From Aurantiochytrium sp. KH105 (lineage: Eukaryota > Sar > Bigyra > Thraustochytrida > Thraustochytriidae): a stretch of 64,000 bases of DNA. This document shows positions 33,225 through 58,550 of this stretch, piece after piece (position 1 is the first letter of the stretch; every line of letters begins with the position of its first letter). The notes under the pieces are model-generated. The model was not told where the DNA came from and searched no databases. It worked only from the letters and a program-made list of their open reading frames with translations. The stretch lies in the NCBI GenBank assembly GCA_003116975.1, contig BGKB01000040.1, positions 62,001 to 126,000 of the forward strand. The letters run 5' to 3'. A program made the position numbers and the translations under genes.

Positions 33225-34759
33225 TTAACCCTGGCTATAAATTTCGTTCGGTCTAACCGAACGAAATTTTCGGCGAAATAGTTTCCCCGATCCGGCGGCA
33301 GGCTGGGTCAGTGAGACCGAACGAAATCTCTGGCAAACACGCGAGGCATTGCATTAAATACTTCTATTCAATTTTAAATCTTGCCGATTGGCCAGATCGT
33401 TCCCACGATGCCCCCGCACCCCTCTGCAAGTTTGCAGGCAAATTCTCCCGGTGGAAGGGTTGTTGTTCTTCTGCAAAGTTGGGTACCGTGAGGGCGAACT
33501 TGACCATGACCTAACGACCGCGCTTCATCAAGCGCTACAGCGGCTACAGCGAGCAGAAAAGCTTGGCAGCGTCGCGAGTCACGCTCTGCGATCGTACCCC
33601 TGGCATGATCGCGTCCAATTTGTTTGCATAGCGGCCCGTTGCGCGAGTTTGAAGCTGGCAACTGCCTCGAGCGATGGCGAGGCCCATGTCGAGAGCTGGT
33701 CGAGACGCTGCAGCTCAACGTCAGCCCAAGCACGGAGGAGGAGGAGGAGGAGCGTGCACATGAGCTCGATGAGGGCGCTCGAGATGATATTGACTGGGAT
33801 CATGCCGATCTGCAAGACGAGCAAGATGATTCTTTTGGAGAATCGATCAAGCTGACAGGACGCGGTTCCTGGAGCTTTGAGTCCTTTTCACGGCGTAACG
33901 CCGCGTATCACGGTGACCTCGCGGGGGCACTACGCCCTCTTGACTCGGTTGATTTGAAATTTAATCCGTACGGAAGTTTGGCTCTCGAGAAGCTCAAACG
34001 GGAGGCAGATGTGGTCGTGAAGCGTCTCCGCGAGCAAGCGAACAAAAGTGATGACGATGAGGGCATGCAACCCGCCGAGATCTTTCACATGATCATGCCG
34101 CCAAACTTTATTAACATCTTCGAAACATGGCTCAATGAATGTGCAACGATTTATAACGAAAGGCTCGCTCGAGGAAAGCGATGCGGACAGTCTCGAAGAA
34201 ACCATGCCGGAGTGCAACCAGTTGGAGAAATATGTGTTCGCTCTGAAAATTAAGACCGCGACAGTGCGGTCTTCGGAGACGGCTCTCGATGAGCGGGTTT
34301 CTCGACAAGGTCTGTTTCGAGAATGCGACGCGGGTGCACAGGACTTCAAAGATCTTGTGCCAAATGCATCCTATTGTGCACAATGTGCACACCATGCAGC
34401 TGTTTTGGATGCACCATGCACATTTCTAGTGTACGCAGATACGGTCGATATCCGACAAATTGTGATCGTCAGATTTTCATCGTCACAGCGCCAGGCCTGG
34501 AGGCTCTACTTCTCATCCCTCGCCAAAGAGTACCTTGGCTTCATTTACTCTGATGCTCAGGAGCCCGTTCCAGACATTGCCGAGGACTACAGCGAGCACC
34601 TCGGTTTTGCACAAGACCATCACACCGTAGAGATATACCTGCAGCTCTGGCGCAAGTACAGTATCGACATCATTTCCAGTGGGACTCCACCGCCGGCCCG
34701 GAAACTTATCCCTATCACAGGTTCTTTCTGGAACCACATGATGGGANAGCCAGGGTTAA
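33225..34759 (+). mobile_element. internally deleted piggyBac-type element with TTAA duplications
   Basis: The left end reads TTAA (33225-33228) then CCCTGGC. The right end reads GCCAGGG (34749-34755) then TTAA (34756-34759). Exact inverted termini starting CCC and flanked by TTAA are the hallmark of piggyBac insertions. Inside is a decayed transposase related to the intact copy at 52.6-56.6 kb. Just inside the left end is a hairpin with 14-bp arms (AAATTTCGTTCGGT / ACCGAACGAAATTT, 33239-33269) and a further ACCGAACGAAAT at 33314. An ambiguous N at 34747 sits two bases inside the right terminus, so the right interior may be incomplete in the assembly. Confidence 0.8.
33624..34746 (+). pseudogene. 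decayed piggyBac-nuclease transposase
   Basis: Two plus-strand frames, shifted by one base, align to separate parts of the intact transposase at 52.6-56.6 kb. The first (to about 34165) matches its N-terminal ~155 residues, for example WSFESFSRRNAAYHGD against WNYESYSARGSEYHGD. The second (from about 34233) matches from the nuclease EIK motif onward (here KIKT), through HHAAVLD and QDHHTVEIYLQLWRK, to FWNHMMG just before the right terminus. About 730 residues between them, including the first two catalytic Asp, are missing, and the frame breaks at the junction. The element cannot encode a working transposase. Confidence 0.8.
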
Positions 34760-44087: not shown

Positions 44088-44600
44088 ATGCGGTTCGTGA
44101 TTCTCTCCGACTCGCACTGCCAACACGGGGAACTGCGGAGTCTACCTGACGGCGACGTACTTGTGCATGCGGGCGACTTGTGCATGCGGGCGACTTTTGC
44201 AGCGCAGGTGGCGTCGAGGAGGCGCCCCAGTTCGTTGCCTGGATGGCCTCGCAACCGCATCGCCACAAGGTCCTCGTGGCTGGCAATCATGACACAATCT
44301 TCGATCCTAGCCACGCACATGCCAGAGAGTACGTTCGGAGCGGAGGTGAGTCCTTCATCACGAAGGACGAACTCCTAAACAGGGGGCATCCACTACCTCT
44401 TCGATGCCGCCGTCGAACTTGATGGCGTCAAGGTCTACGGATTACCTTTTATCCGCGCAGGCTTCCCGAGTCTTTGGGCATTTCCCATCCGATCCGACGG
44501 CCACGCAAAAAGCATCTGGGGAAATATACCCACGGACACCGACGTTCTCGTCACACATTCGCCGCCATTTGGCATCAGGGACCGCGTCTTGGACGGATAA
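44088..44600 (+). pseudogene. metallophosphoesterase remnant, unit A
   Basis: Starts like an MPPED-type calcineurin-fold phosphoesterase: SDSH, GDVLVHAGD and later GNHD. A 17-bp tandem duplication (GTGCATGCGGGCGACTT, near 44163-44196) breaks the frame right after the second motif. The frameshift at AACAGGGGGC shared by all units follows, and the tail stops at VLDG before the GHxH region. An alternative upstream ATG is at 44064. Non-functional as read. Confidence 0.65.
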
Positions 44601-44870
44601 ACTTGAATATTTGGCACCCCGAAATTCCGGACCATATCCCGGATTTTCGACGCATGGCACGTGCTGGCTCGTCGCGTGTGCAGCTCGCATCACTGTCCCT
44701 CGTTCGGCGGCGCCCCTGGCCACGGCAACGCCGCCTGCGAACGCGTACTACCGCGCTCGGCGTATCCACCTCTCTCGCGCCTTTCCCCGGCCGCACTCCT
44801 GCGTCGCCTGCAGCGAAGGAGAAAACAACCTAACTAACTGTAAAACTGCTTTTGATTTACGGGTGTGCGC
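44601..44870. other. inter-unit segment between units A and B
   Basis: A 230-bp segment also found at 47463-47732. It begins AACTTGAATATTTGGCACC and ends before the telomere-like block. It replaces the phosphoesterase C-terminus retained in unit C. No protein or RNA feature recognised. Confidence 0.5.
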
Positions 44871-44955
44871 TACCCTAACCTGGTCATCTGAACCTAACCT
44901 ATATTTAGACCCTTTTTCTGCTTAGACCCCTTTATATTACTTAACCTAACCTGGT
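44871..44955 (+). promoter_or_regulatory. conserved 5' block of unit B
   Basis: Same order of CTACCCTAACCTGGTC, AACCTAACCTATATTTAGA, CTTAGACCCCTTT and TTAACCTAACCTGGTCGAG as in unit A, slightly shorter. It lies about 80 bp before the ATG of copy B. Confidence 0.45.
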
Positions 44956-45036
44956 CGAGCGAGTGAATTTTCCGCAGACAGACGCGGAAAGGCAGGCACG
45001 TGCGCGCGCGGACGCGCGAGCGCGGCCAAGGGCAGA

Positions 45037-46848
45037 ATGGCGGCCACGCGGCCGTTCGCCGAGATACTCCTCGATACACCGATGGAGGAGACCGCGCTGG
45101 TGGACAAATACGACGCGACGAGAGTGGGGGCCATGCAACTCGTCGAGCAAGAGGCGGCTGACTTCTTTGGCGACCGGCCTCAGCCAAGCAGTGGCGCAGT
45201 CAGCTCGCAGTACTCGTCGCGGAGCCGCGGAGGACTCGCGCCCCAGAGCGGCGTTCAAGCTCGCCTCGATTTGCTCCCTGTTAACGTGCTCGCTTGGCAG
45301 GATTTTGAGGACGAAGTCGGGTGGGATCGCTTCGAACAGGAGGCCGGCTTCGGCGACGTCCCGGTATCGCCAGCTCTTTTCTCGACGATACATTTGGATG
45401 CCGATGACCTCAGTGAGGTCGACGCATTCGATCGCCTCAAACTCGGATTTACGGGACCGGCCTTGCGATATGTGATGGGGAGGAGAGCCGAGACGGCACC
45501 GAATTCGTGGACGCCCCTCGAAGTCGCCAGTGCAGTCGAGGCGTCGGGCATCGGACACCGCGTGGACATGGTTTGGACGCAAAAGGTGAGGGATGACAGT
45601 GAGCGGATTCGCGCTGGTATCATCCATCCGAACAATGCTAATAAAGCGCGCTTCCTCGTGCATGAGCACAAGTCGCCCGTGAAATTCCCCTACGGTCTCA
45701 CTCAGCGCGATCTAGATCAGGTTGCCCGGGATTGCAGGCAGAGTCTGGGTACGCCCCTCGACGAAGCCAAAGTTACGGTGAATGGCGTGTGGGAATTGGC
45801 CTGCGAGGACCTGACCGAGTATTGGGAACTGGGCGGGAGTTTCGCCAATCGCGAAAGCTCCATTCGTTTTCGTTACCCAATCATTCAAATCTACATGTAC
45901 ATGCTACGCTCTTTATGCAAGTACGGCGTTCTCTCCACCACCGACAAAACTTGGTTTTTTAAACTCGAGGCAGATAACATACTGTACGTCTCGCGTATGT
46001 TCCGCGCCGAGGCAGATGGCCACGAGTCGGTGCGATACGCCTACGCATGCATGTTGCATCGTAGCGCGACCAGCTTGGCGCGGCTTTCCCTCACCGAAGC
46101 CCATCTCCGGGCCATTTGCCAGACGAACATTCGTTTTGGATCGCTCGAGTGGACTCAGATCTACGAGGGCTTTGGCTATGGCGGTGGCTCCGGAGCGACG
46201 TCGAGCACAAGGAATCGTGGCACCGCTTTGCCTGGCAACTTGAGCAACGTTGCCTCGATCGAGAACCAAGAGGCCCTGCGCCAGCTGCTTCCACTCAAAA
46301 GCGACCTCCACTTTCCCTACGCTGGCGGTCTGCTCGACGTCATCAAGCAGTTCCCCGAAGGCCAGTTTGGCTACTCGATCCGCGTGGACACGGGTGGAGT
46401 TGACACCGTTGTCAAGGTCATGACTCCTTCCAAATCCACGTACGAAACGCGCGAAGCGGAGTTCGCCTTTTGGAACGAGATGGACGTCTATCTCCAGCTT
46501 CGCCCGCTCTGGGGGACGCACGTCCCCTGGTACCTCTACGGCGGTCGCCACATTTTCAACGACCTCATTGTCGCCACCACCTATGCTGGCGAGTCGCTCC
46601 GCGAGAGTCTTTTGACCGACGACATTCGGGCCAAGGCCTTGGCAGCGCTCACGGCGGTGCACCAGGCCGGCGTAGCGCATCGCGACGTGCTGCTGCGCAA
46701 CTTCGTCATGGACGCCACCGGCGCCGTTCGCATCATTGACTTTGCTCAGGCAAAGACAAATGCTTCCCAACAAGACTTTCAAAAAGACCGCGACGCCTTC
46801 GAAAGCATCTTTTCTCTCTCCGGGTCCAGGGGTCGCGGCAAGGCCTGA
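45037..46848 (+). CDS. PD-(D/E)XK nuclease - kinase-like protein, copy B
   Basis: Intact and the same length as copy A (603 residues). The nuclease core (HRVDMVW, VHEHK) and kinase-like residues (VVKVM, HRDVLLRN, IDFAQA) are all kept. Residues ~110-255 differ strongly from copies A and C, for example RRAETAPNSWTPLEVAS and the TQRDLDQVARDCRQ segment, whereas residues after ~255 are almost identical. Substitutions are concentrated around, not in, the catalytic motifs, which suggests changed specificity with retained activity. The first ~110 residues are nearly the same as copy C. Preceded by its own copy of the conserved 5' block. Confidence 0.7.
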   Translation: MAATRPFAEILLDTPMEETALVDKYDATRVGAMQLVEQEAADFFGDRPQPSSGAVSSQYSSRSRGGLAPQSGVQARLDLLPVNVLAWQDFEDEVGWDRFEQEAGFGDVPVSPALFSTIHLDADDLSEVDAFDRLKLGFTGPALRYVMGRRAETAPNSWTPLEVASAVEASGIGHRVDMVWTQKVRDDSERIRAGIIHPNNANKARFLVHEHKSPVKFPYGLTQRDLDQVARDCRQSLGTPLDEAKVTVNGVWELACEDLTEYWELGGSFANRESSIRFRYPIIQIYMYMLRSLCKYGVLSTTDKTWFFKLEADNILYVSRMFRAEADGHESVRYAYACMLHRSATSLARLSLTEAHLRAICQTNIRFGSLEWTQIYEGFGYGGGSGATSSTRNRGTALPGNLSNVASIENQEALRQLLPLKSDLHFPYAGGLLDVIKQFPEGQFGYSIRVDTGGVDTVVKVMTPSKSTYETREAEFAFWNEMDVYLQLRPLWGTHVPWYLYGGRHIFNDLIVATTYAGESLRESLLTDDIRAKALAALTAVHQAGVAHRDVLLRNFVMDATGAVRIIDFAQAKTNASQQDFQKDRDAFESIFSLSGSRGRGKA

Positions 46849-46966
46849 TGCGCAGAGCTGCCCTTTATTTTTGTCAAATAATGTTCTTTAGTGTGTGTTT
46901 TTTCTCTTCTTTCTAATCACCAACGTTCGGGCGGTGTGCCGAATGCAAACCCGCAATCCCATCACC

Positions 46967-47462
46967 ATGCGGTTCGTGATTCTCTCCGACTCGCACTGCC
47001 AACACGGGGAACTGCGGAGTCTACCTGACGGCGACGTACTCGTGCATGCGGGCGACTTTTGCAGCGCAGGTGGCGTCGCGGAGGCGCGCCAGTTCGTTGC
47101 CTGGATGGCCTCGCAACCGCATCGCCACAAGGTCCTCGTGGCTGGCAATCATGATACAATCTTCGATCCTAGCCACGCACATGCCAGAGAGTACGTTCGG
47201 AGCGGAGGTGAGTCCTTCATCACGAAGGACGAACTCCTAAACAGGGGGCATCCACTACCTCTTCGATGCCGCCGTCGAACTTGATGGCGTCAAGGTCTAC
47301 GGATCACCCTTCGTCCGCGCAGGCTTCCCGAGTCTTTGGGCATTTCCCATCCGATCCGACGGCCACGCAAAAAGCATCTGGGGGAAAATACCCACGGACA
47401 CCGACGTTCTCGTCACGCATTCGCCGCCATTTGGCATCATCGACCGCGTCTGGGACGGATAA
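46967..47462 (+). pseudogene. metallophosphoesterase remnant, unit B
   Basis: The best-preserved N-terminal half of the three: SDSH, GDVLVHAGDF, GNHD. A one-base excess in the G run of AACAGGGGGC then breaks frame; dropping one G would continue into IHYLFDAAVELDG, KVYGSPF and LVTHSPPFG, as in MPPED phosphoesterases. Alternatively the GTGAGT at about 47208 and CTAAACAG could bound a 38-nt intron, but this would remove residues that align to the family. The frame ends at VWDG, so the last metal-binding motif is missing. Upstream ATG at 46943. Confidence 0.6.
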
Positions 47463-47732
47463 ACTTGAATATTTGGCACCCCGAAATTCCGGACCATATC
47501 CCGGATTTTCGACGCATGGCACGTGCTGGCTTGTCGCGCGTGAAGCTCGCATCACTGTCCCTCGTTCGGCGGCGCCCCTGGCCACGGCAACGCCGCCTGC
47601 GAACGCGTACTACCGCGCTCGGCGTATCCACCTCTCTCGCGCCTTTCCCCGGCCGCACTCCTGCGTCGCCTGCAGCGAAGGAGAAAACAACCTAACTAAC
47701 TGTAAAACTGCTTTTGATTTACGGGTGTGCGC
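47463..47732. other. inter-unit segment between units B and C
   Basis: Near-identical copy of 44601-44870, including the AACTTGAATATTTGGCACC start. No feature recognised. Confidence 0.5.
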
Positions 47733-47817
47733 TACCCTAACCTGGTCATCTGAACCTAACCTATATTTAGACCCTTTTTCTGCTTAGACCCCTTTATATT
47801 ACTTAACCTAACCTGGT
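47733..47817 (+). promoter_or_regulatory. conserved 5' block of unit C
   Basis: Identical in layout to the block of unit B (CCCTAACC, AACCTAACC, TATATTTAGA, AACCTGGTCGAG), about 80 bp before the ATG of copy C. Confidence 0.45.
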
Positions 47818-47898
47818 CGAGCGAGTGAATTTTCCGCAGACAGACGCGGAAAGGCAGGCACGTGCGCGCGCGGACGCGCGAGCGCGGCCAAGGGCAGA

Positions 47899-49710
47899 AT
47901 GGCGGCCACGCGGCCGTTCGCCGAGATACTCCTCGATACACCGATGGAGGAGACCGCGCTGGTGGACAAATACGACGCGACGAGAGTGGGGGCCATGCAA
48001 CTCGTCGAGCAAGAGGCGGCTGACTTCTTTGGCGACCAGCCTCTCCCAAGCAGTGGCGCAGTCAGCTCGCAGTACTCGTCGCGGAGCCGCGGAGGCCTCG
48101 CGCCCCAGAGCGGCGTTCAAGCTCGCCTCGATTTGCTCCCTGTTAACGTGCTCGCCTGGCAGGATTTTGAGGACGAAGTCGGGTGGGATTCCTTCGAACA
48201 GGAGGCCGGCTTCGGTGACGTCCCTGTTACGCCAGTTCCTTTCATGACGAGCATGGAAAGCGTGTGGGCGCTCTCTGAGACCGACGCATTCGATCACCTC
48301 AAACTCGGGTTTACAGGCCCGGCCTGTAAGTTCGTGATTTCAGAACGAGCTCTGACGTCACCGAATTCGTGGACTCCTCTAGAAATCGGTAAGGCATCCG
48401 AGGCGTCGGCCGTCGGACACCGCGTAGACATGATTTGGACGAGAAAGGTTAAAGATGAAAATGAGCGAAACAACGCTGGCATAACCCTTCCCGACGACCC
48501 TCGTAGAGCGCGCTTCCTCGTGCATGAGCACAAGTCGCCCGTGAAATTCCCCTACGGTCTCACTCAACCCGATCTAAACCAGATTGCTCAGTCATGGATG
48601 CAAGATTCGAATACGTCTCTCGACGAGGCCAAAGAAACGGTGAAAAGTGCCTGGGAATTGGCCTGCGAGGACCTGACCGAGTACTGGGAACTGGGCGGGA
48701 GTTTCGCCAATCGCGAAAGCTCCGTGCGTTTTCGTTACCCAATCATTCAAATTTACGTTTACATGCTACGCTCTTTATGCAAGTACGGCGTTCTCTCCAC
48801 CACCGACAAAACTTGGTTTTTCAAACTCGAGGCAGATAACATACTGTACGTCTCGCGTATGTTCCGCGCCGAGGCAGATGGCTACGAGTCGGTGCGATAC
48901 GCCTACGCATGCATGTTGCATCGTAGCGCGACCAGCTCGGCGCGTCTTTCCCTCACCGAAGCCCATCTCCGGGCCATTTGCCAGACGAACATTCGTTTAG
49001 GATCTCAGGAGTGGACTCAGATCTACGAGAACTTTGGCTATGGCGGTGGCTCCGGAGCCACGTCGAGCACAAGGAATCGTGGCACCGCTTTGCCTGGCAA
49101 CATGAGCAACGTTGCCTCGATCGAGAACCAAGAGGCCCTGCGCCAGCTGCTTCCACTCAAAAGCGACCTCCACTTTCCCTACGCTGGCGGTCTGCTCGAC
49201 GTCATCAAGCAGTTCCCCGAAGGCCAGTTTGGCTACTCGATCCGCGTGGACACGGGTGGAGTTGACACCGTTGTCAAGGTCATGACTCCTTCCAAATCCA
49301 CGTACGAAACGCGCGAAGCGGAGTTCGCCTTTTGGAACGAGATGGACGTCTATCTCCAGCTGCGCCCGCTCTGGGGGACGCACGTCCCCTGGTACCTCTA
49401 CGGCGGTCGCCACATTTTCAACGACCTCATTGTCGCCACCACCTATGCTGGCGAGTCGCTCCGCGAGAGTCTTTTGACCGACGACATTCGGGCCAAGGCT
49501 TTGGCAGCGCTTACAGCGGTGCACCAGGCCGGCGTAGCGCATCGCGACGTGCTGCTGCGCAACTTCGTCATGGACGCCTCTGGCGCCGTTCGCATCATTG
49601 ACTTTGCTCAGGCAAAAACAAATGCTTCCCAACAAGATTTTCAAAAAGACCGCGACGCCTTCGAAAGCATCTTTTCTCTCTCCGAGTCCAGGGGTCGCCG
49701 CAAGGCCTGA
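47899..49710 (+). CDS. PD-(D/E)XK nuclease - kinase-like protein, copy C
   Basis: Intact, 603 residues, with all nuclease (Asp in HRVDMIW, Glu-x-Lys in VHEHK) and kinase-like motifs present. It is a mosaic. The first ~110 residues follow copy B (EETALVDKYDATRVGAMQ), residues ~110-185 are its own, and residues ~186-255 follow copy A (ENERNNAGITLPDDPRR and LNQIAQSWMQDSN). The remainder is common to all, with a small change in the C-terminal tail (ESRGRRKA). This pattern points to gene conversion among the units. Confidence 0.7.
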   Translation: MAATRPFAEILLDTPMEETALVDKYDATRVGAMQLVEQEAADFFGDQPLPSSGAVSSQYSSRSRGGLAPQSGVQARLDLLPVNVLAWQDFEDEVGWDSFEQEAGFGDVPVTPVPFMTSMESVWALSETDAFDHLKLGFTGPACKFVISERALTSPNSWTPLEIGKASEASAVGHRVDMIWTRKVKDENERNNAGITLPDDPRRARFLVHEHKSPVKFPYGLTQPDLNQIAQSWMQDSNTSLDEAKETVKSAWELACEDLTEYWELGGSFANRESSVRFRYPIIQIYVYMLRSLCKYGVLSTTDKTWFFKLEADNILYVSRMFRAEADGYESVRYAYACMLHRSATSSARLSLTEAHLRAICQTNIRLGSQEWTQIYENFGYGGGSGATSSTRNRGTALPGNMSNVASIENQEALRQLLPLKSDLHFPYAGGLLDVIKQFPEGQFGYSIRVDTGGVDTVVKVMTPSKSTYETREAEFAFWNEMDVYLQLRPLWGTHVPWYLYGGRHIFNDLIVATTYAGESLRESLLTDDIRAKALAALTAVHQAGVAHRDVLLRNFVMDASGAVRIIDFAQAKTNASQQDFQKDRDAFESIFSLSESRGRRKA

Positions 49711-49828
49711 TGCGCAGAGCTGCCCTTTATTTTTGTCAATTAATGTTCTTTAGTGTGTGTTTTTTCTCTTCTTTCTAATCACCAACGTTTGGGCGGTGTG
49801 CCGAATGCAAACCCGCAATCCCATCACC

Positions 49829-50521
49829 ATGCGGTTCGTGATTCTCTCCGACTCGCACTGCCAACACGGGGAACTGCGGAGTCTACCTGACGGCGACGTA
49901 CTCGTGCATGCGGGCGACTTTTGCAGCGCAGGTGGCGTCGCGGAGGCGCGCCAGTTCGTTGCCTGGATGGCCTCGCAACCGCATCGCCACAAGGTCCTCG
50001 TGGCTGGCAATCATGATACAATCTTCGATCCTAGCCACGCACATGCCAGAGAGTACGTTCGAAGCGGAGGTGAGTCCTTCATCACAAAGGACGAACTCCT
50101 AAACAGGGGGCATCCACTACCTCTTCAATGCCGCCGTCGAACTTGACGGCGTCAAGGTCTACGGATCACTCTTTGTCCGCGCAGGCTTCCCGAGTCTTTG
50201 GGCATTTCCCATCCGATCCGACGGCCACGCAAAAGCATCTGGGGGAAAATACCCACGGACACCGACGTTCTCGTCACACATTCGCCGCCATTTGGCATCA
50301 GGGACCGCGTCTTGGACGGACGGAACATTGGCTGTCCCATTCTTAGACAAGAAGTCCTTGGGCGAGTGCGCCCCGCACTTTATGTTTTTGGATACAGCCT
50401 CACGCCGGGCCGCATCCAGTGCGACGAAACCGCCTTTGTCAACGCCAGCTGGCCCACCGTCCCAGACCTCGCCACCGGCAACGACTCCGGCGTCGCCACC
50501 TTCGACCTGCAGCCGATTTAA
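49829..50521 (+). pseudogene. metallophosphoesterase remnant with C-terminus, unit C
   Basis: Has the N-terminal motifs SDSH, GDVLVHAGDF and GNHD and, unlike the other units, the C-terminal part ending FDLQPI. It carries the shared G-run frameshift near 50105 and a second one, one A missing in GCAAAAGC near 50232, compared with units A and B. In the last metal-binding site the family's GHxH is read here as FGYSLTPG, so His ligands seem lost. The strand order and size suggest an ancestral gene of ~230 codons. Upstream ATG at 49805. Confidence 0.6.
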
Positions 50522-50565
50522 GCGCGAATACAAGTCTCTATAAACTCCAATTTATTGCTTGCCCC

Positions 50566-51256
50566 ATGTCGCCGCCAATCAAGGGAGCTGAAATTGCAGC
50601 TCAATTAGACTTCACGAAGACAGACGCGCGCAAAGGTCTGCACGGGCTGGTCAATGCTTTGCCGCTGCACTGCGCCATACCGGCAGCTGAAGCGCCTCTT
50701 CTGGTCGCGAAACTGGCCTACCACCCCCACCTTGGCATCCACTTTGACGAAAGCAACTGGCAAGACATTGAGCTCATGCACACCGTCCCAGCGTCGGCAG
50801 CTTGGGCAACAAACCAGCGCTACATTTCAAACCTCCTTCTGTCGAGCTGCGCACCATAAGTATGCAACTTGTCTGAATGAACTCTGGAAACAAGCACGGC
50901 CCGCTAAAGCTCGCAAGCCAAGCGGCAGGCCCGCGGCGCGAATTGCTGAGGCAGATCTCGTTGATGCGCTGCGCGAAGCAACACGCGAGACGGCTCGTCA
51001 AGAGTTCTTACAAACGGCGCGCCACGAATGTGCACGCTGCAAGTTAGGACTCGGTGGCATCGCACACGTTGACCACGACGGCATTCCCTTTGTTGAGATT
51101 GCGCTTGCCTTTCTACGCACGCTCACAACGCGCCTGCGCGTCGCTCGTCGCGGTCACCGCGCGTACCTTGCGCTCAAGGCCGAACGTGAAGCCACGACGC
51201 ACGCGCGACCTTCCCACTGCAATCTCCAAGGGCGCCCGAAATTAGGGCCTTCATGA
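50566..51256 (+). pseudogene. frame-disrupted HNH-type gene
   Basis: The first frame starts at the ATG at 50566 and stops at 50859 after RYISNLLLSSCAP. The overlapping frame continues the same protein from about 50850 (HKYATCLNELWKQARPAK) to 51256. The second part has C-x2-C in HECARCKLG, then HVDHDGIPFVEIALAFL. A paired Cys knuckle followed by HVDH and PF with a hydrophobic helix is what I know from HNH-like proteins of phages, large viruses and mobile DNA. A single-base change near 50850 explains the break. Low certainty about family; the disruption is clear. Confidence 0.4.
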
Positions 51257-51302
51257 ACAACCGTTAGGACGATTCTGCCCGCTCGCGGACCTACCAGAAC
51301 CA

Positions 51303-52369
51303 CCGCTCTGAGCGCTCCGAGCGCAAAATTGCATATGACGCCAGGCGCGAGACGCTACGATCAACTATGCACTCCTCGATCGAAAAGCAACCCATCCAAC
51401 CATGGCGCTCTCCCGTCCAGCCTACGCAATGAGCAGCAGTTCCTCGAGCAACAACGCTGGACTAGCTAAAGTCTCAAACCACGACGCGGCCCTTAACGCT
51501 CTCCTGAATGAGGTCTTGGAGGAACTTGCCGAGATGCAAGAGATCAAGGACATGGAGGGCCTCCGCAAGCTTGCCACGGTCTTCTCCGGAAGCGCCGACG
51601 AGGATGGCTTCATCTTCAACTTCGAGGATGTTTGGCGCCATGCCGGGTACGCTCGCAAGGACGTGGTCAAGCTCTCCGTCGTCGGCGACCGTAATAGAGG
51701 GGGCAATGCAGGAGGTCTTCGCCGGGATATTGACGTCCAAATCTCGGTGAAACCTACATCTCCCGGCCATGGGGGTGATAGGAAGACCGAGCAAATCCTC
51801 CTGACGCGCACTGGTATGATCAAGTTTCTGGTGGGCTCGAAGTCACCCATTGCCCAAGCATTGGCCTGCTTTTTCACCAAGCTAGGAACTCAGCATTGCA
51901 ATTGCAATGCACTAGCGGACGAAGAATGCAACTTGCCTGAACGCTGTCACGCATCTGTCAAGCGAAGTGCTCGCGAGATGCTGGACGACATTGCGGTGCT
52001 CGAGAACAACGAGAGCCTTCATAACGTAGTCAGAGATCGCCTGGCAGAAATCCATGGAGGCCAGACTGAGGCCGTGCTCCGGTCCGGCTGCAGAGTCGAC
52101 GTGCTTTGCTCGGACGTCGTCATCGAGGTCAAAGAGGCGCCTCTCTGGCGCCACGCCTTTGGTCAGGCCATCTCGTATGCATTCAAGACAAAGAAACGAG
52201 GGAGGGTCCCCTGCTTTCCAAGCCGCCAAAAGAAGCGTTCAAGCTGTGCCGTGCCGTCGGCCTTGAACTCACATGGGGCAACCCCGACAAACCAACCGCC
52301 AAGCCAGAGCGAAACCTGGGTTTTCTGTAATCGGAATTGATTTAGAATTCTGCGAGCGCTCAGAGCGGT
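51303..52369. repeat. 16-bp inverted repeat bracketing the MSV199-like gene
   Basis: ACCGCTCTGAGCGCTC at 51303-51318 has its exact reverse complement GAGCGCTCAGAGCGGT at 52354-52369, with partial similarity continuing beyond. The pair encloses the nuclease pseudogene with about 100 and 15-25 bp to spare, as termini of a small mobile element would. Confidence 0.6.
51402..52330 (+). pseudogene. MSV199-like DNA-binding plus PD-(D/E)XK nuclease, frameshifted
   Basis: Residues ~68-162 resemble the MSV199/KilA-N-associated domain of large DNA viruses (FIFNFEDVWRHAGYARKDV, then GGDRKTEQILLTRTGMIKFL). Residues ~220-262 form a PD-(D/E)XK core: Glu223, Asp233 in RVDVL, Glu242-x-Lys244 in VIEVKEA, then LWRHAFGQAISYAF, typical of virus-encoded endonucleases. 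In the starting frame the chain then turns into biased sequence and ends at 52340. One frame over, REGPLLSKPPKEAFKLC and VGLELTW continue the fold and end at 52330, so a one-base shift near 52190-52200 breaks the gene. The start ATG at 51402 or 51429 is uncertain. Likely of viral or mobile origin. Confidence 0.55.
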
Positions 52370-52623
52370 CGTTTAAGAAGGATGAATCTGACCCTCCCTC
52401 CGTCGACACACGCACCTCTGGTCAGCAGATTGCGAACAACATGCCATCGAACCATGGCCGATAAGGCGCGCGCGCTCGCGGCACTGGCGTCCTGCCCGAG
52501 GATGGCGTCGGGGCGCCTTTACTGGTGCCTATACCGGACGAGGTGTGAGATGAAGAGAAGCTGGCAGCCAAGGCCACTCACTCACTTATCCCTTGGATCA
52601 AGCGGATGGTTGTTCAATCTCGA

Positions 52624-55600
52624 TTAGATGTCCAGAGGATCTTGCGGTTCGCGTGTTGAACTGGTCTCGGCAAGAGCGTCAGCGATAGCCTTGGAGGAAT
52701 GAGGGATGAATGGGTCTTCGTCCCGATGTACAAGATCATAGCACCCTTTGCAAAATGCAGCATTGCACTTGCAGCACCAATAGGTTGTTGTTCTTGGTTT
52801 GCGTGCATGCGGAGGTGGCGTTGTTCCGTCTTTCCTTGCGTCATCACAGATCCGGCAGCAAACGAGACATTTCCGGCGCGTTGCAACCTTACCTCGTCCA
52901 CGGATTGACTCATGGTGATGTTCTCTGGGCAAAGTAAAGCGATGGCGCAATACATGAGGCAGAGATGTGCCTCGATACTTCAGTTCGTTTGTGGGTGATG
53001 GTGAAGACGATGATGGGGCTGGTGTAGACGATGATGGGGACGATGCAGAGGGCGATTCTGAAGTGGTAGAGATGAGTTGGCGCAGGTCACGGTCGGTGGA
53101 TCCAATGTTGTGGGAAGCTAAGTTTTCGCAGAATTGCTTCTGACCCAGATTTGACGTCGTCTCAAGAGCGTCCTCCATAAGATCATATAGAAACCCATTA
53201 AAAGTCACCACCCTGCGCTGCGTTGACCACTCATCAAACGATTGTGCTGCCGCAGCACGCTCTTCCATTTGTGACAGCTGATACAGACGGAAAGCATTGT
53301 AGAGCGTATACTCCAAAAACGAGATCCACAGCAGACAATTAGGATTCAGCTGCGAGGCGATGACCTTGTGGCCACTCAGAACCTTGCGCATAGTATCGAC
53401 GCCGCCCATCATATGATTCCAGAAAGATACGATCTGGGGTAAGAGTTTGGAACAAGGTGGGGGAGTTCCATGCCGCTGGATATCCTTGTTGTGCGAACGC
53501 CAGAGCTGCAGGTACACCTCCACAGTGTGGTGGTCTCTTGCATACCCATAAACTTCCGAGTGATCCGTGCCCGCGTCTGGGAATACGGCGTTGCTTTCCA
53601 CATATGCAAATCCCATGTACTCGGAGGAGAGCGCATGTAGATAAGAGCGCCACGCCTGACGACTTTCAAGGGGAACCGTAATAGCAACCACCTGCCTGAC
53701 TTCCTCCGGCGTCGCGTAGACGAGCAGAACGATTTCGACATCGAGCACTGCGGCATGATGCACAACTTGTGCCCGATCAGCAGGCTTTGGCACAAGTTTT
53801 ACGAAATCATTTGTCCCTATTGAAATTTCGCAGAATTCTCCATACTGACCGACCCGGCAGTCAAGCTCTTTTATCGTTTTTGAAGATGCGTATGTCTTGA
53901 TCTCGAGAACAAACGCTCCATGTACTTGAAAGTCCCCGTCCACTTTGTGAAGAAGAACACCAACGCCATCAGGTGAGCCCGCGGCAAATGGTACTTCCCG
54001 GTTAGCAACGAGCCCAAACTGCTTCACGAGAGAGATGCTGAATGCGCCATCTGAGAAAAGTCGAACGCAGCGAGCAAGTTGTTCGAGGACCATGTCTTCG
54101 TTTTCGGTCCCGATCGCGAGAGGGTTTTCGTGCTTGGATCCTCTTACATTTGCGGGCATCCTAAACCAACATCGCAGCATCGTTTGGAGAAAAAGCTTTT
54201 GACGGTCTGTGCGACTTGGCGCTCGAACTTGAGCTTGGGAACTCCTAAAGTCCAGAACATGGTCAGAGTCTGGGTTCCCATTGAAGAGTCTCGAAGGACT
54301 TTGTGACTGACGGGCCTCTTCGTCAGCCTCATTCATGTTCTCGCAACTGCTTTTGCTGTCGCAATCGCTGTCGATGATCTGGTCGCGTTCGGGCATAGCC
54401 CGCGAAGCTGCAAATCGTGCGCGGGGTTCGTGGGAAGTACCCTCCAAGGACTCGTCCCAATCTCTACCGCTTTCGCTCGTTCGATCATCCGCTTGGGGCA
54501 TTGACTGCGAGGTGGAGGCCCGAGGTCGGCCCCGAGGCGGACCCTTCTCAGCAAGTGACTCGTCTGGATCGCTGTCGTTGGCGACATCTTCATCAGAATT
54601 CGGCCGTGCGTGGCCCGTCGCTGCAACGCTATGTGACTGCAGAGCTGCAACAATACGAGCTGCAATATCTCTGTTCTTCTTGGGAACGCTTGCATTTGGA
54701 TCCAGAGATAGAAGCTTTTCACGGAGCGAAGCCTTGCTTTTGAACTCCCGCATCCAGAATTCCGGATTGCTTTGATCTCCGTATGACGACCTTGACTTTC
54801 GCTTTGTTCCAGGGAGGGAAACGTTTGCGACATTCATGAGACTCGCTCCCTCTGACGTGGAGGTTTGAGTGATGGCGCGTACAGAAGTGATACGGGCGAT
54901 CGAAGTGACCGACTTGTGCATTTGAATAAGATCTTGAGTATGCAGAAAGTCAGCGCTCGCAAAATTCAAGCAGGAAAGTGCGCAGGTGCTTGTTGCGCGG
55001 AATAGTCTTTGTAGAAACCAGTCCTGCGTACGCTGCTGCCGCGTAAGGTGCACGATTCTACATTCAACAGCCGCAATAGCTGCGGCGATTTGCTTTTCGA
55101 TATTCGAGATGCTAGGAACACTTGCATCTTCCTGCATGGCAGAAGTGGCGTGTGGCAATCGTTCGACTTTGCCTGGCTGGTCGGGAGCGATAGTTCGAGT
55201 TTCGTACGCCCATCGGTGTATATTCCTCAGAAGAGTTGGTTCGTTAGTGACCAACTGCGCGACACGAGCTTTTCCTTGACCATGGCGCATAAACACTGCT
55301 CCAACTCTGTCAGACGAGCGCGTCGTTGCAACATAAAACGTCCGACGTCCACCGGTTGCGACCTGAACTTGGCCTCGTTGAGTCGCTGGGGCTTTGAGCT
55401 CGTCCTTGTCAGCAAAAGGAAAGCTGTTCGTGCGTCTGCAAGTCCCGACAAACTTGACGCCAAGCCTTTGGAGAATCTGGACGATATTCGTCTGTTTGTC
55501 TTTTTCTTGGTCGCGAGCGATTGAAAGGTATCCACGGTCGAGAAACACAGTCAGGCTTTGCGCGACGTTTCCTATTGCCTCATCACCCGGATTGCATGTA

Positions 55601-56559
55601 AGTCCACGAACAGCAAGCTCAATGACGCCATGCACCTGTCTTCTGAGAGACTCAACCCACGTCTGGACGATGAAACCCGTGGTAATGGAGGCGACAACAT
55701 GTACGCCAGGTTGACATTTTCTGCGTTTGGTAGACGTAAGGCGAACTCCGAATTTTTCGGAAGTTTCGGATCTGAATGGGAGCTTGTCGTCATCGAAACT
55801 AACCCAGGTGACACTAGGGACGAAAAACATACGTACCCAGTGAGATCTCGCAGCCTCCTCCATTTCGTCAAGGTGCCCGCTCATCGAGTAAGCAGCTGGA
55901 GATGTCCCGTCAGCCATTCGATCCTCCCTGCTTGAACGATCGAGGCCCATAGCTTTTCGAACGCGGCGGTAGCCTTGGATGAAGATCGCACATTCCTGAT
56001 GCAAACTCGATCTTCCGCTTTCGAGCCTCTTGAAGGTCTGATGTGTGGCGCGCAGGATGATGTGGATCATAATGAAACCCCACACATCGCTTCTGGTCAC
56101 ATTGAAGCGGGCATCGGAGTCTCGTAGAACCTGAGATAGCCACTGCACAAGCATCGTAATGAAGGTTGGCGGGAGAGCAACTCGAAAGGCATCGAGTGCT
56201 TTGATTTTCCCATTAGCGGAGAGGTTGAGCGCATTGCGTGCTCTTTCAAGAAGCACAGGAGTTTCTCTTTGCACTTTGTCAAACAAAACGGAGTTGGCAG
56301 GGTTGTAGTCAATAGAGACCATGTTCATCCCGCGAACTAGCCCTTTACGGTCTCCATGATACTCTGAGCCACGAGCTGAGTAAGACTCGTAATTCCACTG
56401 ACCACAGCCATCAAGAAGTAAGGTCTCGTCAGCCGCCTCGTCAGTCTCCTCGTCAGTCTCCTCGTCAGCGGAAAAATGTGAGCAGTCATCGCTTTCGTCG
56501 TCACGTTCAAAGTCATACCAAACGTCGTCAAGCAAGGCTTCGTCGACCGCCTCGTCCAT
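52624..56559 (-). CDS. piggyBac-like transposase with inserted PD-(D/E)XK nuclease domain
   Basis: An intact 1311-codon protein (numbering here from the GTG five codons upstream, so subtract 5 for the ATG at 56559). An acidic N-terminus leads into a piggyBac DDE fold: first Asp near 261 (VSFDDDKLPF), second Asp346 (VFLDRGYLS), and third Asp1060 (FWNHMMGGVDTMRK). Between the second and third lie a disordered linker (~480-810) and a PD-(D/E)XK nuclease module (~815-990): NPLAIGTENED, SPDG with Asp869, VLEIKTY with Glu891 and Lys893. After the DDE fold comes a Ser/Pro linker and a C-terminal Cys-rich domain (CLVCCRIC, then YWCCKCNAAFCKGCYDLVH), which in piggyBac binds the element ends. I found no TTAA-flanked termini around it. 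Confidence 0.75.
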   Translation of the reverse strand: MDEAVDEALLDDVWYDFERDDESDDCSHFSADEETDEETDEAADETLLLDGCGQWNYESYSARGSEYHGDRKGLVRGMNMVSIDYNPANSVLFDKVQRETPVLLERARNALNLSANGKIKALDAFRVALPPTFITMLVQWLSQVLRDSDARFNVTRSDVWGFIMIHIILRATHQTFKRLESGRSSLHQECAIFIQGYRRVRKAMGLDRSSREDRMADGTSPAAYSMSGHLDEMEEAARSHWVRMFFVPSVTWVSFDDDKLPFRSETSEKFGVRLTSTKRRKCQPGVHVVASITTGFIVQTWVESLRRQVHGVIELAVRGLTCNPGDEAIGNVAQSLTVFLDRGYLSIARDQEKDKQTNIVQILQRLGVKFVGTCRRTNSFPFADKDELKAPATQRGQVQVATGGRRTFYVATTRSSDRVGAVFMRHGQGKARVAQLVTNEPTLLRNIHRWAYETRTIAPDQPGKVERLPHATSAMQEDASVPSISNIEKQIAAAIAAVECRIVHLTRQQRTQDWFLQRLFRATSTCALSCLNFASADFLHTQDLIQMHKSVTSIARITSVRAITQTSTSEGASLMNVANVSLPGTKRKSRSSYGDQSNPEFWMREFKSKASLREKLLSLDPNASVPKKNRDIAARIVAALQSHSVAATGHARPNSDEDVANDSDPDESLAEKGPPRGRPRASTSQSMPQADDRTSESGRDWDESLEGTSHEPRARFAASRAMPERDQIIDSDCDSKSSCENMNEADEEARQSQSPSRLFNGNPDSDHVLDFRSSQAQVRAPSRTDRQKLFLQTMLRCWFRMPANVRGSKHENPLAIGTENEDMVLEQLARCVRLFSDGAFSISLVKQFGLVANREVPFAAGSPDGVGVLLHKVDGDFQVHGAFVLEIKTYASSKTIKELDCRVGQYGEFCEISIGTNDFVKLVPKPADRAQVVHHAAVLDVEIVLLVYATPEEVRQVVAITVPLESRQAWRSYLHALSSEYMGFAYVESNAVFPDAGTDHSEVYGYARDHHTVEVYLQLWRSHNKDIQRHGTPPPCSKLLPQIVSFWNHMMGGVDTMRKVLSGHKVIASQLNPNCLLWISFLEYTLYNAFRLYQLSQMEERAAAAQSFDEWSTQRRVVTFNGFLYDLMEDALETTSNLGQKQFCENLASHNIGSTDRDLRQLISTTSESPSASSPSSSTPAPSSSSPSPTNELKYRGTSLPHVLRHRFTLPREHHHESIRGRGKVATRRKCLVCCRICDDARKDGTTPPPHARKPRTTTYWCCKCNAAFCKGCYDLVHRDEDPFIPHSSKAIADALAETSSTREPQDPLDI

Positions 56560-58550
56560 CTCCCTTCTTGCCACGACTTAACAGTGCCGCCTTGTCAGCC
56601 TCTGCGCACCCAATGTCCTCCGTGCGCGATCGCTCTTTCTTCCCCGCGCGCCAGGCGATCGTGGTCTGCAATCAGAACCACCGTCTAATCACCATCAAGA
56701 TCCTAACCACCGCGATCACGAGAGACATTGAAAAAAAATAAAAATTCCATGCCGACGGAGAAACCAAACAAAGACTTCAAAAGGGACGGCAAATTCCAGG
56801 GAGCATCTTTGGTGTTTTCGAGCCCCAAACTCGAAGTAAAACATACTAATTTTCATAAGTTTGACTTTATTGTTGATTCCTTATAAATGAAAATTCCAAT
56901 CGCGTTCTCAAAATCATGTCAGAATACCCCCCTACCGTTCTAACTACCAGTTTTACCGACAATAAGGTTATCGATTGTTGCCGTCGGTCGGAACACTTCA
57001 CGAGGCCAACCACCAAAGGAATCGTGTCTGAAAGAGACATGGGCCGAATCTACAAGACAATACCGTAATTGTTATTTCTTGGCCCCAGCAAGGTGGAGTG
57101 GTCACCATTCATTCTCTTGTCTCTACTTTGCGTCGCAGTTGCAACGTCTCCCTTGGTCAGAGAGACGCCAAAACTTTTATATAACAGTCGTCGTGATGAC
57201 TTCGTCACGCCCAAGAACCAAGCAACCTTATGGCTGTCGAATCGTCTCTCGCACCCGAACCCTCTTGATGCAGAACGCACTCACAGTCGGCCTCCGAGTC
57301 GGCAGACGATTCTTCTGGGGACAGGCAGACAACAATTACAGACACAATCACCATATCATGAGCAAGACGCATCGTTTAGAAAGTAAATACAAACGCGAAG
57401 CAGGCGCATAATTGACAGAAACAAGCGCGTGCTCGCAGATCTCAAACCATCAGTCATCGACGTGAGCGGGGAGAGGTCTGCAAAGACGCTACACTGCCTC
57501 AAAAGTTCGATACCTTTCTCGTAGACACGACCGCAAGAGTGGGGAACAGTACAATTCATAGTGTAGCCTGTATAATCGCAAAGCACGCGCATAAAGGAAC
57601 AAGAGTCTTCATGGAAAGTATCGCGCAAATCGGGCTCACATGAGGGGTCTTGGCAAGCGCATGACCTAGGGGCGCTCTCATCGCATCGTGTCCGACGAGC
57701 GCAGCCGTACTGCAAGGCACAGACGATTCTTTGACGGTCCGCGATATCACAAGTCTCGTGGGTGGCGTCGACGCACAAAGTACTGACGCAGCTCATCACT
57801 TCTTCTCAACGTGGCATTTACGTGCACACGACGGCCTCGTAGCCAAAACTAGAACAAAGAAGTGGTTGCAGAGGGAGTCATTTCCCTAGAAATTGCCAAG
57901 AGGGGCTGCAATCGGATCCACTGTCAGCGAATGTTTACGAGCTGCAGATGTGGACAGCCCCTACGAGATCACCGATGCGGCGGAGTCAATGTTCACAACA
58001 GCAAGTGCAACGCACGCACCTATCGCACCTAGAGTGCGCCTCTAGCAGCTGCAGCAACTCCGTCGCGCCAGAACTGAATCGACTCAACATGATTGTCCAA
58101 GATCCGACTTCACAACGGAGACGACGATGTGTGGCCTATTCTAACAAACACCTCACAAGTTCTTTTTAACGAAGCGCAGGCTATCTTTGAGGCAGTTGTC
58201 GTTCGCTACTGCGAAGGTATAACTATGACAGCATTCACGATAAGGCATTTCTCTTGATCATAATCGATAACATGTCCGGTTCGCCCGACATGGACAGCTC
58301 GCCAGCATTTAAAATCGCGGGGATGCTGCTCAGGCTGAAAGGTGCGAGAATTGACGTCTTTGATTTCTTTGTGGAACCTTTCCGAAAGGAAATCATCGCC
58401 GAACATCTTCTTTCTATGGTACTATACGACGTGCATTCGTCGATCTTCAAAGGTGATTGGGACAGCGGAGACAAATGCATCAAATATCGCTCTAATAATA
58501 ATTGCAGAAAGTGGGACAGAGACGTTGCGGCTCCACGCATGGTTGATTCC
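56560..58550. other. poorly coding, AT-richer stretch
   Basis: Two kilobases downstream of the island with lower GC than host spacers and no clear gene. One Cys-rich frame is listed separately. A plus-strand frame at 58254-58679 has a plausible middle (DVFDFFVEPFRKEIIAEHLL) but overlaps the 3' end of the tRNA-binding-protein gene and matches nothing I know. It may be decayed mobile DNA. Confidence 0.4.
57356..57796 (-). CDS. Cys-rich hypothetical protein
   Basis: A 146-residue ATG-started frame with about fifteen Cys residues in irregular spacing (for example RSCACQDPSCEPD and TMNCTVPHSCGRVYE). It ends in a hydrophobic, Arg-containing tail. There is no clear signal peptide and no known Cys framework. 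It may be a relic of a zinc-binding or secreted protein, or chance. Adjacent DNA shows no coding support. Confidence 0.2.
   Translation of the reverse strand: MSCVSTLCVDATHETCDIADRQRIVCALQYGCARRTRCDESAPRSCACQDPSCEPDLRDTFHEDSCSFMRVLCDYTGYTMNCTVPHSCGRVYEKGIELLRQCSVFADLSPLTSMTDGLRSASTRLFLSIMRLLRVCIYFLNDASCS

Follow-up and report, generated by a model that had tools for sequence, protein, structure and literature searches.

A predicted piggyBac-superfamily transposase interrupted by a YqaJ-type nuclease in Aurantiochytrium sp. KH105

The transposon piggyBac is a standard genome-engineering tool, owing to its TTAA target rule and its scarless excision. In animal piggyBac clades, the first and second catalytic Asp residues are reported to be 78-85 amino acids apart, and the second and third 98-113 amino acids (PMC10813416), and TTAA is used in 88% of the cases by Pokey (PMC3849761). 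Paramecium PiggyMac, a domesticated piggyBac, makes 4-nt staggers centred on TA and not on TTAA; the unpaired 5' nucleotide was proposed to be removed by a protein left unidentified in that paper, the passages considered mentioning no nuclease insert (PMC3408717). The ISL2EU elements (PHIS superfamily), reported from animals, combine a DDE transposase with a YqaJ exonuclease, encoded by two separate open reading frames (ORFs), the DDE enzyme belonging to another superfamily and insertion yielding a 2-bp AT duplication (PMC4482050, PMC9179366); the role of the YqaJ protein was stated to be unknown (PMC4482050). The present study concerns 64,000 nucleotides of the marine thraustochytrid Aurantiochytrium sp. 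KH105 (contig BGKB01000040.1, positions 62,001 to 126,000), referred to as the window. As in ISL2EU, both types of enzyme are found here, but in a single polypeptide of a protist: almost certainly, a YqaJ-type nuclease interrupts the RNase H-like fold of a piggyBac-superfamily transposase (Table 1). The protein can be described as a divergent piggyBac with an embedded second nuclease. No piggyBac-YqaJ fusion was found in the open-licence literature, as judged on titles and abstracts, in line with the preliminary description of this locus, which knew of no standard piggyBac with a second nuclease at that place; a search of the same literature for thraustochytrid piggyBac returned nothing.

Architecture of the fusion protein

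The minus-strand frame (52624-56574) comprises 1316 amino acids counted from a GTG, the first ATG corresponding to residue 6; residue numbers are those of this window protein (P0001), with the GTG as residue 1. The end at 56559 agrees with the preliminary description, and all motifs named there were retrieved, namely the Asp motifs FDDDK (260-264), FLDRGY (344-349), and GGVD (1057-1060), as well as SPDG (867-870), LEIK (890-893), and the Cys-rich end (~1235-1278). The window protein had no Pfam match at E 1, nor at E 5; single-protein scans of PHROG and PDB sequences gave nothing useful, and family-alignment Pfam scans of ten members gave weak zinc-finger matches only. In the Cys-rich end of these ten members, zf-Tnp_2 was matched weakly in two (best E 0.51) and B-box, also weakly, in four. 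Because Pfam finds nothing, the fusion was assigned on the basis of profile matches, motifs, and fold.

The transposase part was compared with a piggyBac profile made of the matched stretches of piggyBat (9c0f) and Trichoplusia ni (T. ni) piggyBac (6x67), together with three piggyBac-like genes that PF13843 had retrieved from the same genome. The family flanks, joined without the insert, matched this profile with a probability of 86.2 and a score of 52.2 (maximum of 40 column shuffles, 23.7), and the two PDB chains alone with a probability of 45.9 and a score of 39.1 (shuffles, 19.5). The part with the third Asp (D3; residues 1030-1135) alone reached a probability of 75 with either profile (scores of 39.2 versus 18.6 and 38.1 versus 17.9 for shuffles), the first catalytic part alone matching the piggyBac profile weakly (probability 1-3). 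The profile alignment sets D261, D346, and D1060 opposite the piggyBat triad. Furthermore, in an AlphaFold2 model of low confidence, piggyBac 6x67 was aligned across the insert, over model residues 3 to 1048 (102-1147 of the window protein). Helices occupy model residues 2-110 (block predicted local distance difference test, pLDDT, 58-85), and this low-confidence model has an all-helical dimerization and DNA-binding domain (DDBD) built from parts before and after the catalytic domain, next to an RNase H-like fold with three catalytic Asp, as in piggyBac. The proposal that the flanks form one DDE domain is thus supported by the single 6x67 alignment over the low-confidence model. A PDB sequence search with a piggyBac-like protein of the same genome (L033) found no piggyBac chain. 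The protein resembles piggyBac 6x67 and piggyBat 9c0f in its DDD triad, its distance of 85 amino acids between the first two Asp, its two-sided helical DDBD, and its Cys-rich C-terminus; unlike them, it has 714 amino acids instead of about 100 between the second and third Asp, an inserted nuclease, and a sequence below Pfam detection.

The insert was compared with a YqaJ profile of nine phage genes (seven annotated as exonuclease, one as YqaJ-like, and one as hypothetical) and the genome's own YqaJ protein. Residues 495-562 plus 786-1013 matched with a probability of 94.3, an E of 1e-7, and a score of 57.0, with shuffle maxima of 27.6 (100 shuffles of the YqaJ columns) and 20.7 (50 shuffles of the fusion-family columns); the core alone gave a probability of 75.2 and a score of 40.9 (shuffles up to 27.8). 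The register of YqaJ and lambda exonuclease (PF09588; 3slp, 3syy, 3k93) is kept in order, namely Q514-x4-W519-x3-R523-x4-T528, G822-x3-E826, SPDG with D869, E891-x-K893 of LEIK, and Q936 of the Gln helix. Of these, E826, D869, E891, K893, and Q936 presumably correspond to E85, D119, E129, K131, and Q157 of lambda exonuclease, a K131A mutant of which is named in a PDB entry title. In the family, D261, D346, Q514, W519, and R523 were kept in eight of the eight members covering each, T528 in six of eight (Ser in P0005 and P0006), and the five residues from E826 to Q936 in all six covering members, stray aligned letters at 346 and 528 of L018, whose frame begins downstream, being left out of the counts. 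P0007 carries SVDG in place of SPDG. This supports a predicted PD-(D/E)XK nuclease of the YqaJ/lambda-exonuclease kind, with a complete catalytic signature, inserted between the second and third Asp, where transposases carry insertion domains; such a module had been proposed from the motifs. The module stands, but not its start near residue 815, since the Q-x4-W-x3-R-x4-T motif (514-528) lies far earlier and is followed by a long acidic linker. The nuclease thus differs from YqaJ and lambda exonuclease in having its two parts separated by a linker of ~220 residues, in its place inside a transposase, and in escaping Pfam. A nuclease-only AlphaFold2 model was too poor for use; in the model aligned to 6x67, the linker had a pLDDT of about 20-30 in most blocks and of 53-69 at residues ~600-649. 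This short helical stretch (residues 600-649, window ~54628-54777), the pattern of which is conserved in P0002 and P0005, may resemble the SAP DNA-binding motif, Pfam listing no SAP match among ten family members.

Mobile relatives and fixed copies

Protein searches covered about 5.8 billion proteins, part of them scoring only candidates sharing most words, and retrieved at least six relatives (P0002-P0007), P0003 and P0004 being from Hondaea fermentalgiana, and P0002 and P0007 being metagenomic. Because of this scoring, and because one search omitted P0002 and P0003, further members surely exist. Collinearity with the fusion extends over the whole protein in P0002 and P0007, and the latter, at 32% identity, keeps every catalytic residue. 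P0003 was aligned through the insert but lacks the D3 part at its end, so that the fusion is present in a related genome, as the preliminary description had suggested checking; P0005 and P0006 end within the insert. No relative was confirmed in viral (IMG/VR) and prokaryote (GTDB) contigs scanned with two peptide patterns each, nor was any found in a phage collection by tblastn or in a viral scan using the genome's own YqaJ protein. In the own genome (76 Mb, 367 contigs), the fusion had at least 38 matches, among which a second copy (contig C152), open over 1307 codons, is 92% identical. P0004 is 98.5-99.6% identical to this copy in three matched pieces; its gene model (FCC1311_015262) omits residues ~301-688 and ~754-918 (C152 numbering), with GT-AG limits. 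These gaps would delete the second Asp and most of the nuclease, and reflect either a prediction error or a short isoform. Two loci without the insert (C61 and C290), which share 97% identity and are probably the two alleles of a single locus, were rejected as an ancestral insert-less transposase; they are uninformative on ancestry, because C61, for which a translation was made, has internal deletions and a broken frame.

The mobile relatives are internally deleted or gapped copies with CCCTGG ends, the termini being CCCTGGCTA (sister subfamily) or CCCTGGATA (P0001-type), so that both kinds of terminal repeat start with CCC, as in piggyBac. Pattern searches retrieved 21 5' ends and 36 3' ends of the former kind (17 of these 3' ends have two mismatches and represent a sister family), and four 5' ends and five 3' ends of the latter. 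In the sister short family, 17 places of the own genome share the 3' end CCCTGGCTAGCCACATAAAACGG without any difference over its 23 bases. Target duplications were scored on these mobile relatives, as the window ORF has no ends. Identical 4-bp flanks were found in 15 of 17 copies with both ends close together on one contig, the flanks being unequal in C127 (GACT/GTAT) and C134 (CTGG/TGAA), and in four N-interrupted copies with both ends, at window 33225 (TTAA), C51 (CTAC), C240 (CTAT), and C95 (TTAA; one terminal base changed). Hence, 19 of 21 two-ended copies show 4-bp duplications (CTAA 6, ATAG 5, TTAA 3, CTAG 2, GTAT 1, CTAC 1, and CTAT 1), those of the four P0001-type copies being CTAA, ATAG, CTAT, and TTAA. 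The central TA, which piggyBac shares, was present in all 19 (NTAN), as in the staggers of PiggyMac, but, unlike in piggyBac, strict TTAA occurred in three of 19. In addition, two empty alleles contain a single target copy, ATAG (C154 versus C26) and TTAA (C152 versus window 33225); the empty site of C8 was unreadable, its flank being a tandem repeat with 140 matches. One-ended copies (6/21 of the 5' ends, plus C16, C83:222 kb, and C145) were left unscored, C95 being the only one of C16, C83, C95, and C145 to show both element ends. A deletion shared by these four, which could suggest an amplified derivative, was not counted as independent evidence of one, as the copies end at single-N joins with identical sequence. 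Such single N also occur at joins inside other family members (e.g. window 34747) and are probably assembly gaps caused by the family repeats.

The window contig (C40) and C152 are haplotypes or homeologues. They match at 88-96% over ~12 kb left of the ORF and ~4.7 kb right of it, with gaps and a tandem duplication, the matches stopping within the compared stretches; the 33-kb region of the window likewise maps to C152 (92%). The ORFs differ at 175 of 3904 aligned positions, without insertion or deletion (indel) over 1306 codons, compared with 185 of 1708 positions and 14 indels upstream of the ORF. C152 lacks window 50550-52667, including the last ORF codons. The ratio of non-synonymous to synonymous substitution rates (dN/dS) of the ORF was 0.456 (73 synonymous and 112 non-synonymous changes; Fisher p 7e-7); selection was not seen in the Cys-rich end alone (dN/dS 1.17 on 10 changes). 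The preliminary description was right about a frame open over ~3.9 kb, and with all catalytic residues present this could point to a recent, active transposon. However, no CCCTGG terminal repeat was found on either side of the ORF, and the same locus occurs on both haplotypes with a flank divergence of ~10% (4-12% by stretch), which makes recent activity very improbable. The window copy shows two properties of a domesticated gene, namely loss of its ends at a fixed locus and purifying selection after fixation, and we consider it likely to be both immobile and selected. There is next to no chance that the fusion is an artefact, either a chance long frame or a chimeric assembly of transposase and nuclease genes: single-N joins are numerous around family members in this assembly, but the ORF contains no N, and this reading is refuted by the independent records of the fusion in Hondaea (P0003), on another contig of the same genome, and in two metagenomic proteins (P0002 and P0007).

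A degenerate relative occupies a syntenic locus on contigs C73 and C18. In an alignment-dependent comparison, D346 was replaced by Q; E826, E891, K893, and Q936 were lost, and D261, D869, D1060, and W519/R523/T528 were retained. Nevertheless, its dN/dS was 0.114 over 899 codons (65 synonymous and 25 non-synonymous changes; p 8e-23). It looks like a domesticated fusion gene, probably inactive; being constrained all the same, it hints at uses of the fold in the host other than catalysis.

Possible roles of the embedded nuclease

As a whole, a nuclease-bearing piggyBac with mobile members that use NTAN targets, end trimming, and an immobile, selected window copy is the best explanation, and a fairly probable one. 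In the mobile members, the DDD site would most likely follow the usual cut-and-paste route of piggyBac, with hairpins and a 4-nt stagger, except that the target is NTAN and not TTAA. Once the hairpins are opened, a 4-nt 5' overhang copied from the old site would be present on each end of the transposon. With TTAA, this overhang always fits the next target; with NTAN it would usually fail to match the new gap, and 5' nucleotides would remain unpaired both at the fresh joints and at the donor. The built-in 5'-to-3' nuclease may trim the mismatched overhangs, upon which the joints would be filled and sealed, and possibly also the unmatched 5' ends at the donor site. We infer that a lambda-type nuclease inside the transposase would be the right kind of enzyme for this step, which PiggyMac would have to borrow. 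The window copy may now serve the host, or the family in trans. Some points weigh against trimming by the embedded nuclease: the step could be carried out by flap nucleases of the host, T. ni piggyBac is reported to integrate well even when its flanks are not TTAA (PMC7351741), and clean duplications fit trimming without showing which enzyme trims. The end-trimming role is therefore put forward tentatively.

The preliminary description had the nuclease process ends left after excision or degrade competing DNA; the former is favoured here because of the relaxed NTAN target. The latter belongs to a somewhat unlikely alternative with the same architecture, in which the nuclease would resect 5' ends at the donor break (or other DNA), recombination restoring the donor and raising the copy number, or would attack competing DNA. 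Enzymes of the lambda-exonuclease type are processive 5'-3' resection enzymes, paired in phages with annealing proteins; four of the nine phage YqaJ-type genes adjoin a gene with the annotation bet, ERF, recombination, or single-strand annealing protein. Little argues against resection: of the neighbouring ORFs, the two that were scanned had no Pfam match, no proper search for an annealing partner having been made, and the two haplotype-empty sites show neat target insertion but are silent on the donor. Alternatively, the nuclease domain could be retained not for catalysis but to bind DNA, shape the dimer, or capture the target, like the insertion domains of other transposases. It occupies the stretch where the piggyBac insertion domain is described as lining the target-DNA channel (PMC7351741), and the C73/C18 gene is still constrained despite residues lost from both active sites. 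However, the catalytic set is complete in the six covering members, at identities as low as 32%, and in the two alleles of the window gene; this would be unexpected for a purely structural domain and makes such a role decidedly unlikely.

If end trimming holds, a wider and rather doubtful scenario would be that the two nuclease sites of one chain share the work, the DDD site cutting and joining and the acquired lambda-type 5' exonuclease finishing the ends, which would free the lineage from the palindromic TTAA, immobile copies maybe being recruited as host genes twice (C40/C152 with intact sites and C73/C18 with both damaged). A natural NTAN-targeting piggyBac with its own 5' nuclease would then show a route to relaxing the TTAA rule, and the fusion may explain the role of YqaJ nucleases in eukaryotic transposons. 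As both predicted activities reside in one chain, single-site point changes make the question directly testable.

Coordinates and neighbouring features

Table 1. Positions of the fusion gene, its parts, and related loci (window numbering, unless a locus is named)
Feature	Position	Strand	Basis or remark
Fusion transposase ORF, from first ATG	52624..56559	minus	frame open from GTG at 56574; open on other haplotype too
piggyBac-type DDBD and first part of catalytic fold, residues 100-452	55219..56277	minus	AlphaFold2 model, VIA-align to 6x67 / 9c0f; profile match joined with D3 part
D261, first catalytic Asp	55792..55794	minus	profile and family alignment
D346, second catalytic Asp	55537..55539	minus	profile and family alignment
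Insert between second and third Asp, residues 453-1039	53458..55218	minus	distance of 714 amino acids; limits approximate
YqaJ N-terminal helix motif QRTQDWFLQRLFRATST, residues 505-562	54889..55062	minus	profile and family alignment
Linker inside nuclease, residues 563-785	54220..54888	minus	acidic, mostly unstructured in model; length varies among relatives
YqaJ / PD-(D/E)XK core, residues 786-1005	53560..54219	minus	profile, structure alignment, family alignment
E826, nuclease residue	54097-54099	minus	
D869, nuclease residue	53968-53970	minus	
E891, nuclease residue	53902-53904	minus	
K893, nuclease residue	53896-53898	minus	
Q936, nuclease residue	53767-53769	minus	
Last part of DDD fold, residues 1040-1135	53170..53457	minus	D1060 at 53395-53397; own profile match to piggyBac
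C-terminal Cys-rich domain, residues 1232-1300	52675..52881	minus	Cys/His pattern
End of similarity to 5' end of mobile relatives	56976..56977		approximate; terminal repeat missing
End of similarity to 3' end of mobile relatives	52604..52605		~400 bp including terminal repeat missing
Second, internally deleted family member	33225..34759	+	TTAA duplications 33225-33228, 34756-34759; ends CCCTGGCTA / AGCCAGGG; N at 34747
Syntenic degenerate relative, contig C73	L026:2485-5829	+	same neighbours on both haplotypes
Syntenic degenerate relative, contig C18	L027:3906-7043	-	same neighbours on both haplotypes

Three further pairs of piggyBac-like genes were found in the genome, namely L033/L034 (C193/C261), L035/L036 (C95/C278), and L037/L038 (C80/C11). 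The three examined (L033, L035, and L037) have no such nuclease and have seemingly lost catalytic residues, as judged by eye; the pairs are possible further domesticated transposases. Next to the fusion gene, an ORF at 51402-52340 (+) lies between 20-bp inverted repeats (51298-51317 and 52354-52373), inside the 2.1-kb stretch missing from C152. It has 22 matches in the own genome, one of them full-length, and Pfam finds nothing in it; presumably, it resembles the KilA-N/MSV199 plus IEVKEA nuclease genes of large DNA viruses. Finally, short matches recur every ~2.86 kb at window ~44300-50100 (44338, 47200, and 50061), where several alignments with the other haplotype overlap, as expected of a tandem duplication.

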